Origin: Acidobacteriota bacterium
GTDB taxonomy: Bacteria; Acidobacteriota; Thermoanaerobaculia; Gp7-AA8
Length of the DNA: 64,000 nt
Assembly (NCBI GenBank): GCA_016184115.1
Contig: JACPDH010000120.1
Location: 1 to 64,000 of the forward strand
Reading direction: 5' to 3'
Below, piece after piece: positions 36,672 to 62,132 of this stretch. Every line of letters begins with the position of its first letter. Positions within the stretch are counted from its first letter, which is position 1. Made by a program: the position numbers and the translations under genes. Below the pieces are notes generated by a model. The model did no database searches. It worked only from the letters and a program-made list of their open reading frames with translations, and was not told the origin of the DNA.

Positions 36672-36806
36672 AGATGGGAGCTACGGATGCCTCGGTGATG
36701 CGCGCCGAAAAGCGATCCGCTCAATCTGAGAAGCGTGGCGATCCGCGCTTCACGTTCACGCTCCACGTCTTCGGCCCACGTCTCGCGTTTCGCGATCCGC
36801 GTTTCC
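36642..36806. repeat. Inverted heptamer arrays between convergent genes
   Basis: The left array (36642-36669) reads AGCACGG, AGCGCGG, AACGCTG, AACGCCT and contains the sthA stop. The right array (36751-36806) reads in sevens CACGTTC, ACGCTCC, ACGTCTT, CGGCCCA, CGTCTCG, CGTTTCG, CGATCCG, CGTTTCC, the inverse style, and ends at the stop codon of the minus-strand gene. Layout matches the locus at 16248-16406. Confidence 0.65.
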
Positions 36807-37051
36807 TACGCGCCGGGTCGCAGTTGCAGCCTGAGCGTTGGCGATCCCGCGGTCGCGTGCATGCCCGGTTTCAACTCGAAGCCGTCTTCGGGCTCCGACG
36901 TGTCGGCGCCGAGCAGAAGCAATAGCCGTGCAAGTTCACGCATCGCGAGCCGGTCTCCCTCGAGGATCACCTCGCTACCCGAGATGCGCAGTCCGATGGG
37001 TGACTTCGCCAGCCCTTCGAGAACCATCATCGCCAGCTCGACGTTGACCAT
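36806..37051 (-). CDS. Small protein of unknown function (81 aa)
   Basis: Not firmly recognised. ATG 37051 has GGGGAG 6 bases upstream and overlaps nothing; the gene starts 3 bases after the queD stop, so it is probably co-transcribed. The core reads LRISGSEVILEGDRLAMRELARLLLLLGA, a pattern (acidic turn, Leu-rich helix) that recalls small Imm32-like proteins, but the match is too weak to name. The stop codon is at the edge of a heptamer array. Confidence 0.6.
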   Translation of the reverse strand: MVNVELAMMVLEGLAKSPIGLRISGSEVILEGDRLAMRELARLLLLLGADTSEPEDGFELKPGMHATAGSPTLRLQLRPGA

Positions 37052-37054
37052 CAC

Positions 37055-37459
37055 TTACTCCCCTTCGTAGGTCGCCGAGTTCCGCTCGGTCTCGTGAAGG
37101 ACGACACGGCAGAGGCGTCCTTCGCTGATCGCCGGAGCGAGCTGGTCCCAGAACGCCTTTGCAAGGTTCTCTGCCGTCGGGATGATGCCACGAAGAAACT
37201 CGACGTCGACGTTGAGGTTCGTGTGATCGACTCGGTTCACCACGCGCTCGCGCATGATGTCCTTGAGGCGCTTGAGGTCGATGACCATGCCGGTCTCCGG
37301 GTCGATCGATCCACGCACGCTTACCTCGAGGACGTAGTTGTGTCCGTGGCCGGAAGGGTTGTCGCACTTGCCGTACACGCGACGGTTCCACTCGGCATCC
37401 TTCGCGGGATTGTTCAGCCGGTGCGCGGCGGAGAAGTCGAGTTTTGCGGTAACGATCAT
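37055..37459 (-). CDS. queD: 6-carboxytetrahydropterin synthase / 6-pyruvoyl tetrahydropterin synthase family
   Basis: Converts dihydroneopterin triphosphate to carboxytetrahydropterin in queuosine synthesis. The 134-aa chain has zinc ligands His 13 (SAAHRL), His 38 and His 40 (SGHGHNY), the catalytic Cys 32 (YGKCDNPSG) and the Asp-His pair in VDHTNLN. Other queuosine genes are not in the window, so a pterin role cannot be excluded. Confidence 0.88.
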   Translation of the reverse strand: MIVTAKLDFSAAHRLNNPAKDAEWNRRVYGKCDNPSGHGHNYVLEVSVRGSIDPETGMVIDLKRLKDIMRERVVNRVDHTNLNVDVEFLRGIIPTAENLAKAFWDQLAPAISEGRLCRVVLHETERNSATYEGE

Positions 37460-37551: not shown

Positions 37552-40500
37552 TCAGAGCGACATGCTCTGCAGCGCGGCGGAGAGTCCCGCCGACTTCTCG
37601 CGGATCACCCTCTTGAGCTTCGTGAAGCGCGGGTCAGTTCCGAGATAGCCGAAAAGGGGACTGGAGACGATGTAGGTGAGCGACGGCTCGGAGTGCGCGA
37701 CCGCAGTCTCGAGTGCCGCGAGCACCTGCTTCTGCCGGTTGAGGAGCACGTTGACCTCGGCGACCAGGGTGTAGTGGTCGTCAGCGCGAGTGACCGCCGA
37801 CTCAGCCTTGGCGATCTCGGCATCGGCAGTCGCCGCATCGCCTTTGCCGGCGGCGATGAACGCGCTCAACATCGGAAGCGTGTAGGGATCGTTCAAACGC
37901 TGCTGGCGCGCCTGTTCGAGCTCGATGATCGAGTCGGACCGGCGGATTACCGCGAGCCTCCCGATCTTCAGCGAGAGCCAGGGGTTGTCCTGCTGTGTCT
38001 CCTGGGTCTTGTAGTACGCCTTGACTGATGCGTCGACCCTCCCGCGCGCAAGTGTGATGTCGGGCTCGTGAAGGCGAGGGTTCGACGCGCGAACTGACGC
38101 GAGGCGTGCCACGACGGTTTGGAACTTTCCTTCGTCGGCAACCGCGAGGGCATAGTCTCCGACGAGCGTCAGCACTTCGGGGTCGTCACCCTTCGCGCTG
38201 AGCAGCGCCGCGAGGTACGAGATCGCCTTCGGCGCGTTGCCGCGCTCCGCCTCCCACCGTGCGAGTTCTTTGCGGATCTCGAGGTTTGCGGGGTCGAGCG
38301 AGGCGATCGTCGCCGCACTCTTGAAGGCGTCGTCGCGGTTTCCGCTCCGCAAGTATGCGGCATAGAGGAGCTCGTGGGCGCGGAGGTACTTCGCGTCGGC
38401 GGCCACGGCCTTCTTCGCGGAAGCGGTTGCTTTCTTGTCATCGCCGGCGCGCTGCTGCGCGACCGCGTCGATGTACGCCTTCGTCGCGCCCGCGTTCGTC
38501 GAAACGACCGTTGCCAGGTCTTTGCCGAGAGTCGATGCCATCCAGTGCGCGAGCGCCAAGGCTGGCTCGTAATAATCCTTCACCTTTGCGGGGAGCGCGA
38601 TCGGATCGCCTTCGGTCAGCGTCGAGCCTTCGACGAGGGTAGGAACGAGAACGAGACCGTCGTCGCCCTTTCTCACGACCGCGCCAAGGACTCGGCTCGT
38701 CGGTGCTGCCGCGTCGACGAATGTCAACGACGAGTCGAGACGAACGATCGATGCAGTCATTGCGCCGATCCCGTTCGCGAGCGCGACGAGCTTCGGATCG
38801 GGTGGTGGCGCAGTCGTAGTCGCCGTCGTGTCGGTAGTCGTCGGGGGAGCCGAGGTCTCGACGACGACGCCGCCAAGAAACACCTCCGACGGATTGATCG
38901 TCGGTGCGGTGTCTGTGGGCGGCGGCGGTTCCGCGGTTGCGGGTTCGGGGGCCTGAGTTGCAACCGCGACGGCGACGGGCACGGGAGGCGCGGCGTCGCC
39001 CTTACGCATCATGAAGAACGCGGCGGCTGCTCCACCAAGGACGACGACGGCGCCGATGCCGGCGACGAGCGCCATGCTCGATGATTTTTTCTTCGTGGGC
39101 GACGGCGCGATTGCTTCATCGTCCATCGAAGCGTCGTCGATCTCCTCATGAGCTGCCCCCTTCGTGGCATGAGCTGTGGGTGCCGGACGTGAGGCGGGAA
39201 CCGGGGCTGGCGCGGCGTCGTGCGATGCTGCGGGGGGCGCTAGGTTCGTTGGCACTGCCTGCGCGCGGGGAAGTAGCGTCGGAGCGGCGTAGAAGTTCAC
39301 TCCTCGGAACGCGCCGGCGGGCGAGGGGATCGATGTGAGGCCGAGCGCACGGATGACCGGCTCCGAAACGAGCGTCTGCATCGGTTCCATCGCGTCGAGA
39401 ACGGCATCGGCAATCTCGAGGCCGACGCCGCCTGGCTTCCCGGTCGTCGCGACGAGCTCGCCGAAGTGAACGACGGTGCGCGGCTCGACCGGCTCGGCGG
39501 CGTTCGACATGTTGTGCTCGACGATGTCGGCGAGCCCTTTCTGCGCGGCGCGAAGCGCGCTCGAGGCGTCGGGGAGCTCAGCCACCATACGCGGGCCGAA
39601 CGAGTCGAGCACTTTCCCGTCGAAGAGGTAGACCGCTTCGCCGAGATACTGCTGCATTCGCGTTTCGAGGCGAGACGCCTGCTCCGGATCTTTTTTGCGG
39701 AGAAGCTCGTGATACGGCAGCTCGCATACGACGATCCACGCCGGAGCGGCGGCGGCCTGCGGCGGGGGCGCCACAGCGACGGGCGTCACCGTCTTCCGTG
39801 CCGCGAGGCGGTCGATGTTCGGCTCGAGTTTCCGCAGGTCGGCGAGGATCTCGTCAGCCTTCTGATAGCGCTTGTCGGGGATTTTCTGAAGGCAGCGCCC
39901 GATGAGAGAGAGGATCGAGCGATCGGCGGTAGGGGCCGCCGGTGCCGCAGGCGCGCTCTGCGCGATCGCCTGCGTGATCTCCGCGGGAGTCGCGCCGCGG
40001 AACGGCGTTTTCCCTTCGAGCATCTCGTAGAAGACGGTGCCGAGTGCAAAGACGTCGCTCCTCGAATCGACCGGCTTGCCGATCACCTGCTCGGGCGAGA
40101 GGAATAGCGGTGTTAGGGCGTCGTTCGGCCGGAGCGAGCCGAGGAACGTCGGGCCCGACTCGTGCTTGCGGCGAATCGACGCATAGCCCATTCCAACCAG
40201 GTGGACGTCCCCCTGCGGCGTCACCACGAACGACTCGCTATTGAGCTCGCCGTGTGCGATTCCCTTCGAATGAAGATGGGCGACGGCATCGGCGATCTGG
40301 AATGCGAGGCGCAAAAACTCGCCTCGCGCCGGCGGTGACACGCGCGTCCGCTGCCGGAGGCTGTCGCCTTCGATCAGCTCGAGCACCATGAACAACATGT
40401 CGCGATCGATGTCGATCTCGAGAATCTGGGCCACTCCCGGGTGGCGAGTCGCCGCGCCGACGCGTGCCTCTTTGAGCATCGCATCGCGCTGGGCCTTGTC

Positions 40501-40656
40501 CTTCGGAACCAGGCGTGTGAGGATCTTGATTGCAACTGGTTTGCCGCTTCGCGAGTCGCTCGCCTTCCAGGCGTTGATCGATCCCGGAAAGCGCTCGTTA
40601 AGCACGTAGTGAAGCAGCTGGAACCCGGGGGCGAGGCTCTCCGGAATGCTCGACAT
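37552..40656 (-). CDS. Receptor-like pseudokinase with degenerate cyclase-like domain, membrane span and long extracytoplasmic part
   Basis: A 1034-aa protein starting at ATG 40656 (MSSIPESLAPGF); the frame upstream is the antisense of cinA. Residues 12-275 have a Ser/Thr kinase fold: Lys 44 (VAIKIL) and SPEQ are kept, but the HRD loop is HGE (135-137), the Lys and Asn after it are changed (HGELNSES), and the DFG is VGMG (154-157). It should not transfer phosphate. Residues 305-460 resemble a class III nucleotide cyclase (VLDSFGPRMVAEL, VVHFGELVATTG, LVSEPVIRAL) without the metal Asp residues. One membrane span is at 528-550, then a Thr/Pro-rich linker and helical repeats, TPR-like. Its TATAAT box lies 7 bases before the ATG. 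Confidence 0.85.
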   Translation of the reverse strand: MSSIPESLAPGFQLLHYVLNERFPGSINAWKASDSRSGKPVAIKILTRLVPKDKAQRDAMLKEARVGAATRHPGVAQILEIDIDRDMLFMVLELIEGDSLRQRTRVSPPARGEFLRLAFQIADAVAHLHSKGIAHGELNSESFVVTPQGDVHLVGMGYASIRRKHESGPTFLGSLRPNDALTPLFLSPEQVIGKPVDSRSDVFALGTVFYEMLEGKTPFRGATPAEITQAIAQSAPAAPAAPTADRSILSLIGRCLQKIPDKRYQKADEILADLRKLEPNIDRLAARKTVTPVAVAPPPQAAAAPAWIVVCELPYHELLRKKDPEQASRLETRMQQYLGEAVYLFDGKVLDSFGPRMVAELPDASSALRAAQKGLADIVEHNMSNAAEPVEPRTVVHFGELVATTGKPGGVGLEIADAVLDAMEPMQTLVSEPVIRALGLTSIPSPAGAFRGVNFYAAPTLLPRAQAVPTNLAPPAASHDAAPAPVPASRPAPTAHATKGAAHEEIDDASMDDEAIAPSPTKKKSSSMALVAGIGAVVVLGGAAAAFFMMRKGDAAPPVPVAVAVATQAPEPATAEPPPPTDTAPTINPSEVFLGGVVVETSAPPTTTDTTATTTAPPPDPKLVALANGIGAMTASIVRLDSSLTFVDAAAPTSRVLGAVVRKGDDGLVLVPTLVEGSTLTEGDPIALPAKVKDYYEPALALAHWMASTLGKDLATVVSTNAGATKAYIDAVAQQRAGDDKKATASAKKAVAADAKYLRAHELLYAAYLRSGNRDDAFKSAATIASLDPANLEIRKELARWEAERGNAPKAISYLAALLSAKGDDPEVLTLVGDYALAVADEGKFQTVVARLASVRASNPRLHEPDITLARGRVDASVKAYYKTQETQQDNPWLSLKIGRLAVIRRSDSIIELEQARQQRLNDPYTLPMLSAFIAAGKGDAATADAEIAKAESAVTRADDHYTLVAEVNVLLNRQKQVLAALETAVAHSEPSLTYIVSSPLFGYLGTDPRFTKLKRVIREKSAGLSAALQSMSL

Positions 40657-40663
40657 GTTCCGA

Positions 40664-40669
40664 ATTATA
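40664..40669 (-). promoter_or_regulatory. Perfect -10 box (TATAAT) 7 bases before the pseudokinase ATG
   Basis: On the minus strand GGATATAATTCGGAACATG places TATAAT 7 bases before the start codon, without a ribosome site, as at 10209. On the plus strand the same bases give TTATAT 5' of the cinA ribosome site (AAAGGGAG, 40673-40680), so this 33-bp gap may serve both genes. Confidence 0.5.
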
Positions 40670-59822: not shown

Positions 59823-62132
59823 CTATGGCCTCGGGCCTGCGTTGTCGTCCAGCCCGCACCTCTTCAGCAGATCCCTGAATCGTGGGTCATCCTTGTAGGG
59901 CTCGAGGCGTGGGTCGACGGCGATGAAGACCATCCACGCCGAGCGGTCGGTGAAGGCCGCCTCGAGCCAGTCGAAGACGAGCTTGGTATTCCCGAGACCC
60001 GCGTGGACGACCGCGATGTCATAGGGCGAGACGTAACGCCGGCCGGAGAGCGACATGAGCTCGTGCAGCGTCGCCTCCGCATCGGTTCGCCGCCCCGAGA
60101 CCGCAAGCGCGTGCGCCATCGCCGCACGGATGATCAGGACATCATTGATCGAGAGGATTCTCGTGAAGGTCTCGATCGCCTCGGAGTGCATGCCGAGATG
60201 CTCCTGGGTGATGCCGAGCCATCCGAGTCCCGGGATGAAGTTAGGCTCGATCTCGAGGACCTGGAGGAGCTGTTCGAGCGCCGCTTCCACCGCGCCGGAA
60301 AAGAGGATCGGCAATGCGAAATGTACCCCGACCGTGAGCGACAGCGGATCGAGCTCGTGCGCGCGCGAGAGCTCCTCCGCGGCCTCGTCGAACTGCCCCA
60401 TCTCGGCGAGCATGAGGCCTAGCGCGTCGCGTGCCTGCGCGAGACTCGGGTTGAGCTGCAGGGCCCGCCGGAACGACGTCTCCGCGTCGTTGCGGTTCCA
60501 TTCGTGCCACCAGAGCACCGACGCGAGCGATGCGTGCGCTTCGGCGAGCTCCGGATCGAGCTCCAGAGCCTTCTGCGCCATTGCCTTCGCCTTCGGCATC
60601 GTTTCGCGCGGAGGAAGCGGAATGTTCGTCGCGAGCGTGACGTAGGCATCGGCGATGCCGACCCAGGGAAGCGCGAATGATGGATCGCGCTCGATCGCCT
60701 GCTCGTAGTACTCGATTCCGCGGCGGATTCCCTCGACCGTTCGTTTGTTCCAGTTGAAACGGCCGCGGAGATAGAGCTGGTACGCCTCGCTGTCGGTCGT
60801 CGGCTGCCGTTTTGCTGGCTTCTTCGTGCGCGTGCCACCGACGCGTGCACGAATCTGTTCCTCGACGGCTTCGGCGATCTCGTCTTCGAGCGCGAGCAGA
60901 TTCGCGCTGTCTCCACGGAACTGCCTGCCCCAGATCCGCGTTCCGTCGGCGGTGCCGGCGATCTCGACGCTGACCGAAAGGTCATCGCCGCTCCAGAGAA
61001 CGCGGCCTGCGACAATCGTATGGACGGCGTGTCGCCTGCCGATCGTGACGGGGTCGAGCTGCTCGCGCTTGTAGCGGAAGACGGTGCTCGACGCCAAGAC
61101 GCGCAGCTTCGGAATCGTCGAAAGCGTGTTGATGAGCGTCTCGGTGATGCCGTCGCAGAGGTACTCAGCCTCCGGAACGCCCGCCACATTGGAGAACGGG
61201 AGGACGGCGAGTGAATCGATGCGCGCCGTGGCACGCTTGCGCCTCGTCGTTTTCGCGAGCGTGAGCGGCACGATGTGCTCTCCCGAGCGTGACGAGATGG
61301 CCCGGAACGTCATCGCGAGGTCGCGCGCCGACTGGTAGCGCTGCTCGCGCGTCTTCGAGAGGCAGTGCGAGACGATCGTCTCGACGTCGGGCGGAACGAG
61401 GCGCGAGAGATCATGGTAGTCGTCGGGGTACTCATGGAGGATCGCGGAGATCGTGTCGACCGGCGTATCGCGCCAGAATGCGCGACGCCCGGTCACGAGC
61501 TCGAAGAGGATGCAGCCGAGCGCGAAGATATCGGTCGCTTCGTCGACAGGCTCTCCGCGAAGCTGTTCCGGCGACATGTAACCGAGCGTGCCGATGATCC
61601 GGTTAGGCCCAGTGACGGCGAGCGGCGAGGTGTCGCCGTCAGGGTTGACCGTCGCCTCGCTCGCCTGTGCGAGTCCGAAGTCGAGGATCTTCACCCGCCC
61701 ATCGGTCGTGAGAAAGATGTTCTCCGGCTTCAAGTCGCGATGAACGATTCTCCGTCCGTGTGCGTGTGCGAGACCGTCGGCGATGTCGGCGCAGATCTCG
61801 ATCGCCGTCCTCCAGTCGAGCTTCGACTGCTGGAGGCGGGCGCGAAGGGTCACGCCCTCGAGCAGCTCCGTGACGGTGAAGTAGGTCCCTTCCTGGTTCC
61901 CGAAGTCGTGGATCGCGAGGATGTTCGGGTGCGAGATCGCTGCGATCGCGCGCGCCTCACGCTCGAAGCGGGCTCGCGCATCGACGTCGGCGGAGAGCTG
62001 CTCGGGGAGCACCTTGACCGCGATCTCGCGCCCGAGACGCGTATCGCGAGCCTTGTAGACCTCTCCCATCCCGCCAGCGCCGATCGGCGCGACGATCTCA
62101 TAGGGACCGAGCCGGGTGCCTTCCTGAAGCAA
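59823..62132 (-). CDS. Ser/Thr protein kinase with TolB-like and TPR domains
   Basis: A 769-aa cytoplasmic protein without a membrane span. Residues 11-275 are an intact Hanks-type kinase: GAGGMGEVYKARD, Lys 40, HRDLKPEN (131-138), DFG (151-153) and a GTLGYMSPEQ activation segment end. Residues 305-420 match the TolB-like domain (LAVLPFSNVAGVPEAEYLCDGITETLINTLS, GRVLWSGDDLSVSVEI). About eight TPR-like repeats follow. It starts at TTG 62132, 16 bases after the ABC permease gene, so it probably shares that operon. The protein is a clear contrast to the inactive kinase at 37552. Confidence 0.9.
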   Translation of the reverse strand: MLQEGTRLGPYEIVAPIGAGGMGEVYKARDTRLGREIAVKVLPEQLSADVDARARFEREARAIAAISHPNILAIHDFGNQEGTYFTVTELLEGVTLRARLQQSKLDWRTAIEICADIADGLAHAHGRRIVHRDLKPENIFLTTDGRVKILDFGLAQASEATVNPDGDTSPLAVTGPNRIIGTLGYMSPEQLRGEPVDEATDIFALGCILFELVTGRRAFWRDTPVDTISAILHEYPDDYHDLSRLVPPDVETIVSHCLSKTREQRYQSARDLAMTFRAISSRSGEHIVPLTLAKTTRRKRATARIDSLAVLPFSNVAGVPEAEYLCDGITETLINTLSTIPKLRVLASSTVFRYKREQLDPVTIGRRHAVHTIVAGRVLWSGDDLSVSVEIAGTADGTRIWGRQFRGDSANLLALEDEIAEAVEEQIRARVGGTRTKKPAKRQPTTDSEAYQLYLRGRFNWNKRTVEGIRRGIEYYEQAIERDPSFALPWVGIADAYVTLATNIPLPPRETMPKAKAMAQKALELDPELAEAHASLASVLWWHEWNRNDAETSFRRALQLNPSLAQARDALGLMLAEMGQFDEAAEELSRAHELDPLSLTVGVHFALPILFSGAVEAALEQLLQVLEIEPNFIPGLGWLGITQEHLGMHSEAIETFTRILSINDVLIIRAAMAHALAVSGRRTDAEATLHELMSLSGRRYVSPYDIAVVHAGLGNTKLVFDWLEAAFTDRSAWMVFIAVDPRLEPYKDDPRFRDLLKRCGLDDNAGPRP

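Follow-up and report, generated by a model that had tools for sequence, protein, structure and literature searches.

To our knowledge, pseudokinases of bacteria have been little studied, and catalytically dead domains of class III nucleotide cyclases have rarely been described. Among the closest described systems, EssB/YukC of type VIIb secretion (T7SSb) is a bacterial membrane pseudokinase that acts as a dimeric interaction hub without binding ATP (PMC9600267), and in receptor guanylyl cyclases a pseudokinase relays the signal in a chain whose cyclase is live (PMC10400071). Seven families of bacterial Ser/Thr pseudokinases (ActPs1-3, GLW, CP1, DYD, and DLHK) have also been delineated, some of them with a C-terminal span and with losses in several motifs, and the 2025 review of these families makes no mention of cyclase, TPR, or Acidobacteriota (PMC12599244). 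In the literature that we searched, no bacterial chain with both a dead kinase and a dead cyclase was described, and searches on dead cyclases and on TOMM fusions returned nothing useful.

The receptor reported here is encoded in a window (the whole stretch of DNA analysed, 64 kb) taken from a draft genome of 126 contigs. From N to C terminus, a kinase fold is followed by a class III cyclase fold and then by a single membrane span; beyond the span, the outer part comprises a small α/β unit and a TPR solenoid. It resembles EssB/YukC in its N-terminal, presumably cytoplasmic pseudokinase with all catalytic motifs lost, its one span, and its outer C-terminal domain, but EssB/YukC has neither a cyclase nor a TPR domain, stands in a secretion-gene context, and belongs to a different phylum. 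Indeed, the neighbours expected of T7SSb, EssC/YukB and WXG100, are absent here, and a PTPS-family gene, a gene for a small protein, and either accC/BCCP or cinA are found instead. With the receptor guanylyl cyclases GC-A and GC-C, it shares an outer sensor, one span, and the joining of a pseudokinase to a class III cyclase in one chain. However, their order is outer part, span, pseudokinase, and active cyclase, whereas here pseudokinase and cyclase precede the span and the cyclase is dead, which sets the protein apart from that group. We read this resemblance as one of logic only and do not claim common descent of the arrangement. The seven described pseudokinase families are likewise bacterial; compared by the description in the review, the GLW family has a bulky residue at the beta-3 Lys position, whereas the Acidobacteriota family studied here keeps the Lys.

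Results

The receptor gene (Table 1) opens with the residues MSSIPESLAP, a choice of start codon backed by the orthologs, which likewise open with MS[SAT]. Its nearest named relative is a Thermoanaerobaculia MAG, with 67-68% identity across the protein.

Table 1. Features of the receptor locus (positions in the window; residues numbered in the receptor).
Feature	Position	Strand	Remark
Whole gene: pseudokinase, pseudocyclase, membrane span, alpha/beta unit and TPR	37552..40656	-	1034 aa
Pseudokinase domain, residues about 25-280	39817..40584	-	Pkinase 1.5e-29; closest solved relative PknB
Lys44 of VAIK motif	40525..40527	-	Invariant in 18/18 family members
HGE (135-137) where HRD is expected	40246..40254	-	HGN, HLN, or HQN in relatives
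GMG (155-157) where DFG is expected	40186..40194	-	G155 invariant 18/18
Class III cyclase-fold domain, residues about 305-460	39277..39744	-	Catalytically dead
Glu312 at first metal-Asp position (CELPYH)	39721..39723	-	Asp 15/19, Glu 4/19
DSFGP (351-355)	39592..39606	-	Purine-Lys site D351, second metal site P355
Single membrane span, residues about 525-552, KKK just before	39001..39084	-	One strong hydrophobic segment
Outer alpha/beta unit, residues about 590-685	38602..38889	-	Predicted secondary structure
Outer TPR solenoid, residues about 696-1031	37564..38571	-	Predicted structure and TPR matches
PTPS-family gene directly downstream	37055..37459	-	Adjacency in 17/18 testable genomes
Small conserved 82-aa protein, abuts PTPS gene end	36806..37054	-	Follows in most genomes
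TATAAT	40664..40669	-	7 nt ahead of receptor ATG; candidate leaderless promoter

The N-terminal domain belongs to the protein kinase superfamily, the Pkinase profile matching residues 31-271 and thus both lobes with 103.7 bits. The kinase profile of the family finds PknB as its best solved relative (E = 6e-46). Motifs were read from a single alignment of the 18 family members with other kinases of the source genome. All 18 members, the window protein included, have lost the three residues that mark an active Ser/Thr kinase: the HRD Asp is replaced by E or N (E137 in the window protein), the catalytic Asn by S, A, or T (S142), and the DFG Asp by Gly (G155 of V-GMG). The Gly-rich loop is moreover degraded or shortened in each of them. 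Among the other kinases of the same genome in which the site was covered (n = 44), the HRD Asp is present in 44/44 and the DFG Asp in 42/44. With APE Glu, αF Asp, and αI Arg all retained in the pseudokinase, its kinase fold is expected to stand. The coordinates, Lys44, and the HGE and VGMG replacements listed in the first-pass annotation were all found in the sequence as described, and the comparison of orthologs that it had proposed showed the losses to be common to the family.

Further kinases of this genome deviate from the canonical motifs. A second degenerate kinase (L139:1-1962, minus strand; G000:C77:1012-1818) has Arg in place of the beta-3 Lys, HGD, Ser in place of the catalytic Asn, and no DFG Asp, and is followed by a span, an IAVMPF unit, and repeats. 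In another (L105, G000:C18:49962-50564), HFG replaces DFG and the remaining motifs are intact. The window itself encodes, at 59823-62132, a protein that has no cyclase domain and in which an active-looking Ser/Thr kinase (HRD, DFG) is fused to TPRs and a TolB-like unit (SLAVLPF).

The second domain had been assigned to the cyclases by motif pattern, and this assignment now has a firmer footing. A profile of the domain (A1) matched the solved class III cyclases 3mr7 (E = 1.6e-11), Rv1900c, and Ma1120. An AlphaFold2 model of residues 303-472 reached a pLDDT of 91.5 and a pTM of 0.85, and the best 50 listed Foldseek matches of this model in the PDB were all class III cyclases (best E 1.4e-9, TM 0.62-0.77). 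Fold and sequence profile thus agree on a class III nucleotidyl cyclase fold. By Pfam and NCBIfam, the domain went undetected in every member scanned, so that annotation relying on Pfam would recognise a kinase and overlook the cyclase fold entirely.

In 19 sequences, the 18 family members and one from the sister family, this domain was found to lack the residue set that a working class III cyclase needs, namely a pair of metal-binding Asp, the substrate Lys (and Asp/Thr), and the transition-state Asn and Arg. The purine-selecting Lys is replaced by Asp in 18 and by Glu in one. At the second metal site, where P355 falls on the Asp in the register of profile A1 against solved cyclases, P (11), K (3), A (2), S (1), R (1), and Q (1) occur, and never Asp. 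Asn is found at the transition-state position in one sequence, and the Arg in none. The annotation had read both metal sites as lost: this holds for the second (SFGPR), but not wholly for the first, which is acidic in all 19, with Glu in the window protein and three others. This Glu, a conservative change, occurs in the window genus and in two further lineages. The remaining losses are older, as they are already seen in the kinase-less homolog of the sister family. The stretch 335-375, within which the old catalytic loop lies, is the most conserved of the domain (mean column entropy 0.94 vs 1.39 bits for the whole domain); this, together with the exchange of Lys for an acid in all 19 sequences, suggests that the former active site has acquired a new role in binding. 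Dead sites were thus shared by the orthologs and a cyclase fold was predicted for residues 305-460, so neither of the two outcomes named at the outset as grounds for rejection, a different fold or intact motifs in orthologs, was observed. Elsewhere in the genome (L062 and L064, G000:C19:18903-19422), two directly adjoining reading frames, not in the same phase, each encode one half of a class III cyclase match, which reflects a frameshift or an assembly error.

The membrane span expected by the annotation was recovered, and what it had called a repeat-rich outer part was modelled (pLDDT 89) as an α/β unit that leads into a solenoid of helical repeats. Fold matches of the solenoid were TPR structures, among them the periplasmic adaptor NlpI. 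In related receptors, a TolB-like "IAVLPF" unit probably occupies the position equivalent to that of the α/β unit. Bacterial receptor kinases are generally laid out such that the kinase side would be cytoplasmic; in several orthologs the residues flanking the span show only a weak charge asymmetry, and the orientation is for this reason only an inference.

A search with residues 307-1034 returned a single ortholog from every one of the 17 further genomes of the same GTDB family, so that the receptor is present once in 18/18 genomes examined. In the sister family of the order, represented by one genome (G018), the homolog has no kinase domain, and outside the order the same search gave weak repeat matches only. 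Profile A1 was likewise found in single copy in 19/19 genomes of the order, and just three others among 149 genomes of the class matched, weakly. In a sample of 297 genomes of the phylum, the seven matches outside the order were all weak, those inspected being mostly ordinary active-looking cyclases; of the matches from a cyclase search in this sample that were open to checking, one alone had an in-frame kinase, so no ancestral active form was pinned down. No full-length relative was found on the plasmids searched. Against the gene of a sister species (L041), dN/dS was lowest in the cyclase domain (0.14), followed by the kinase (0.19), the linker with the span (0.24), and the outer part (0.27), values that are approximate as dS is near 1. 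Both dead domains are under purifying selection.

Gene neighbourhood was also well conserved. The downstream PTPS gene lies on the same strand, also in G018 of the sister family, with a gap of -4 to 28 bp in most genomes and of about 90-400 bp in a few; in one genome (G008) none was found near the receptor, and in another (G006) the contig ends there. The PTPS neighbour scores under the NCBIfam cut-offs for QueD, and the 82-aa protein matched nothing in Pfam or NCBIfam. On the other side of the receptor, 13 genomes from other genera whose upstream sequence is long enough carry a same-strand biotin carboxylase gene (accC) upstream. Where the locus was read in detail (L042, L044, L045, L048, L050, L054, and L059, the sister family included), a BCCP gene separates this gene from that of the receptor in all seven cases. 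The linkage to acyl-CoA carboxylase subunits is thus conserved outside the window genus, in which a divergent cinA-like gene takes their place. The source genome (G000) has three PTPS-family genes, on contigs C39, C120, and C44.

Other proteins show similar arrangements. A receptor from another Acidobacteriota family (G313, L137:2660-6211) has the same domain order, TPR outer part included, but its HRD, DFG, and cyclase D, K, GD, and N are intact, its Arg position is Leu, and no PTPS match is adjacent. Proteins with a cyclase, a span, a TolB-like unit, and TPRs (e.g., G020, L132) share the cyclase, the span, and the outer TPR part, which in one such protein aligns with that of the receptor (hhalign probability 96.5%). 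However, they have active cyclase residues, no kinase, and no PTPS link. The TIGR03903 TOMM system fusion, judged by its model name, also places a kinase before a cyclase, but the receptor does not belong to it, scoring 75.1 bits against a cut-off of 705.75 through its kinase part only.

Discussion

Both catalytic domains of this receptor are dead, as the first-pass annotation had proposed: the kinase losses are found in 18/18 sequences and the loss of metal Asp 2, Lys, and Arg of the cyclase in 19/19. We lean, if only somewhat, toward a membrane-anchored, non-enzymatic signal relay or scaffold. From a mechanistic point of view, the outer TPR solenoid, probably periplasmic, would bind a protein or an envelope ligand, and the resulting change would cross the single span to reach the cyclase-fold module and the N-terminal pseudokinase. 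The former may pair as cyclases do, its active relatives being obligate dimers, and the latter may offer a docking surface. The two cytoplasmic heads would then control their partners by conformation alone, with neither phosphate transfer nor cyclic nucleotide, the likeliest partners being one of the approximately 44 active-looking Ser/Thr kinases or the products of linked genes. EssB/YukC offers a tested precedent for a membrane pseudokinase of bacteria that serves as a hub. Our computations establish the four-part anatomy, both folds, the catalytic losses across the family, purifying selection, single-copy retention, and the gene linkages, whereas the topology of the receptor, its dimerisation, what it binds outside and inside the cell, and which way the signal runs are all putative parts of this scheme.

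The heads may alternatively have kept a ligand: in a nucleotide-sensing receptor, the pseudokinase or pseudocyclase would still bind ATP, GTP, or a cyclic or pterin-related nucleotide that sets the signalling state. This seems doubtful to us. The invariance of Lys44 in all 18 members means that a nucleotide could still be bound, the acidic first metal site is kept in all 19, and known members of the PTPS family linked to the receptor act on a GTP-derived pterin; yet all 18 members have a degraded or shortened Gly-rich loop and Gly for the DFG Asp, and the purine-selecting Lys is an acid in 19/19. Described pseudokinases indicate that such motifs are compatible with both outcomes, since GC-C, with a degraded loop and HGR, binds ATP and VRK3, with HGN and GFG, does not (PMC2639636, Table 1), so that sequence cannot decide on nucleotide binding. 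In the annotation's wording, "scaffold or nucleotide-sensing receptor", the scaffold or receptor part fits our data, but nucleotide sensing received no positive support. We consider it unlikely that the receptor, itself non-catalytic, is a regulatory partner of another enzyme in the cell, its dead cyclase domain pairing with and tuning a class III cyclase or a kinase that is active. Class III cyclases do act as dimers, and the genome encodes several active-looking ones in addition to the kinases. However, the conserved neighbours included no visible cyclase gene, and the domain, without metal Asp 2, Lys, Arg, and mostly Asn, is unable to complete a shared active site from either side; such a site with another cyclase is ruled out by the residues.

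A different chemistry run by one of the domains appears more improbable still. Kinase-fold proteins do offer precedents, the pseudokinases SelO and SidJ catalysing AMPylation and glutamylation, respectively, and both the invariant Lys44 and the strong conservation would suit such an activity. SelO and SidJ nevertheless retain their metal-binding residues, whereas in this family both kinase positions are gone (D155 to G, N142 to S/A/T) and the cyclase domain has one metal ligand at most. Least credible of all is a functionless, decaying remnant of an enzyme receptor, for which the enzymatic-looking counterpart of G313 might argue; presence in 18/18 genomes, dN/dS of 0.14-0.27, and a loss common to all genera of the family contradict it.

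The relay or scaffold reading can be extended, although we hold this extension as a conjecture with the odds against it: the double pseudoenzyme receptor would define a family in which an enzyme receptor abandoned both catalyses, its old cyclase loop became a new binding site, and the outer signal is passed by contact alone to the co-encoded PTPS and acyl-CoA carboxylase enzymes. The conserved metabolic neighbours may, however, reflect slow change of gene order and not a common function. Because another Acidobacteriota family has an enzymatic-looking counterpart with this domain order, we regard the protein as a lineage-specific double pseudoenzyme receptor and not as a system of a new kind. 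Since the phylum also offers active-looking relatives of identical or comparable architecture, this family is a natural test of kinase and cyclase folds as purely mechanical signalling parts.

The putative promoter also extends beyond this gene. TATAAT or a near-identical hexamer lies 6-12 nt ahead of the start in most receptor orthologs. The whole window has only two TATAAT sites (40664-40669 and 10209), both 5-8 nt before a start codon, and across 325 kb of loci (L041-L058) 17 of 18 such sites sit 6-12 nt ahead of an ATG, many of these being the receptor orthologs themselves. This pattern suggests that leaderless transcripts may be common in this bacterial family. In the same 325 kb, TACAAT shows a bias toward ATG-proximal positions like that of TATAAT.
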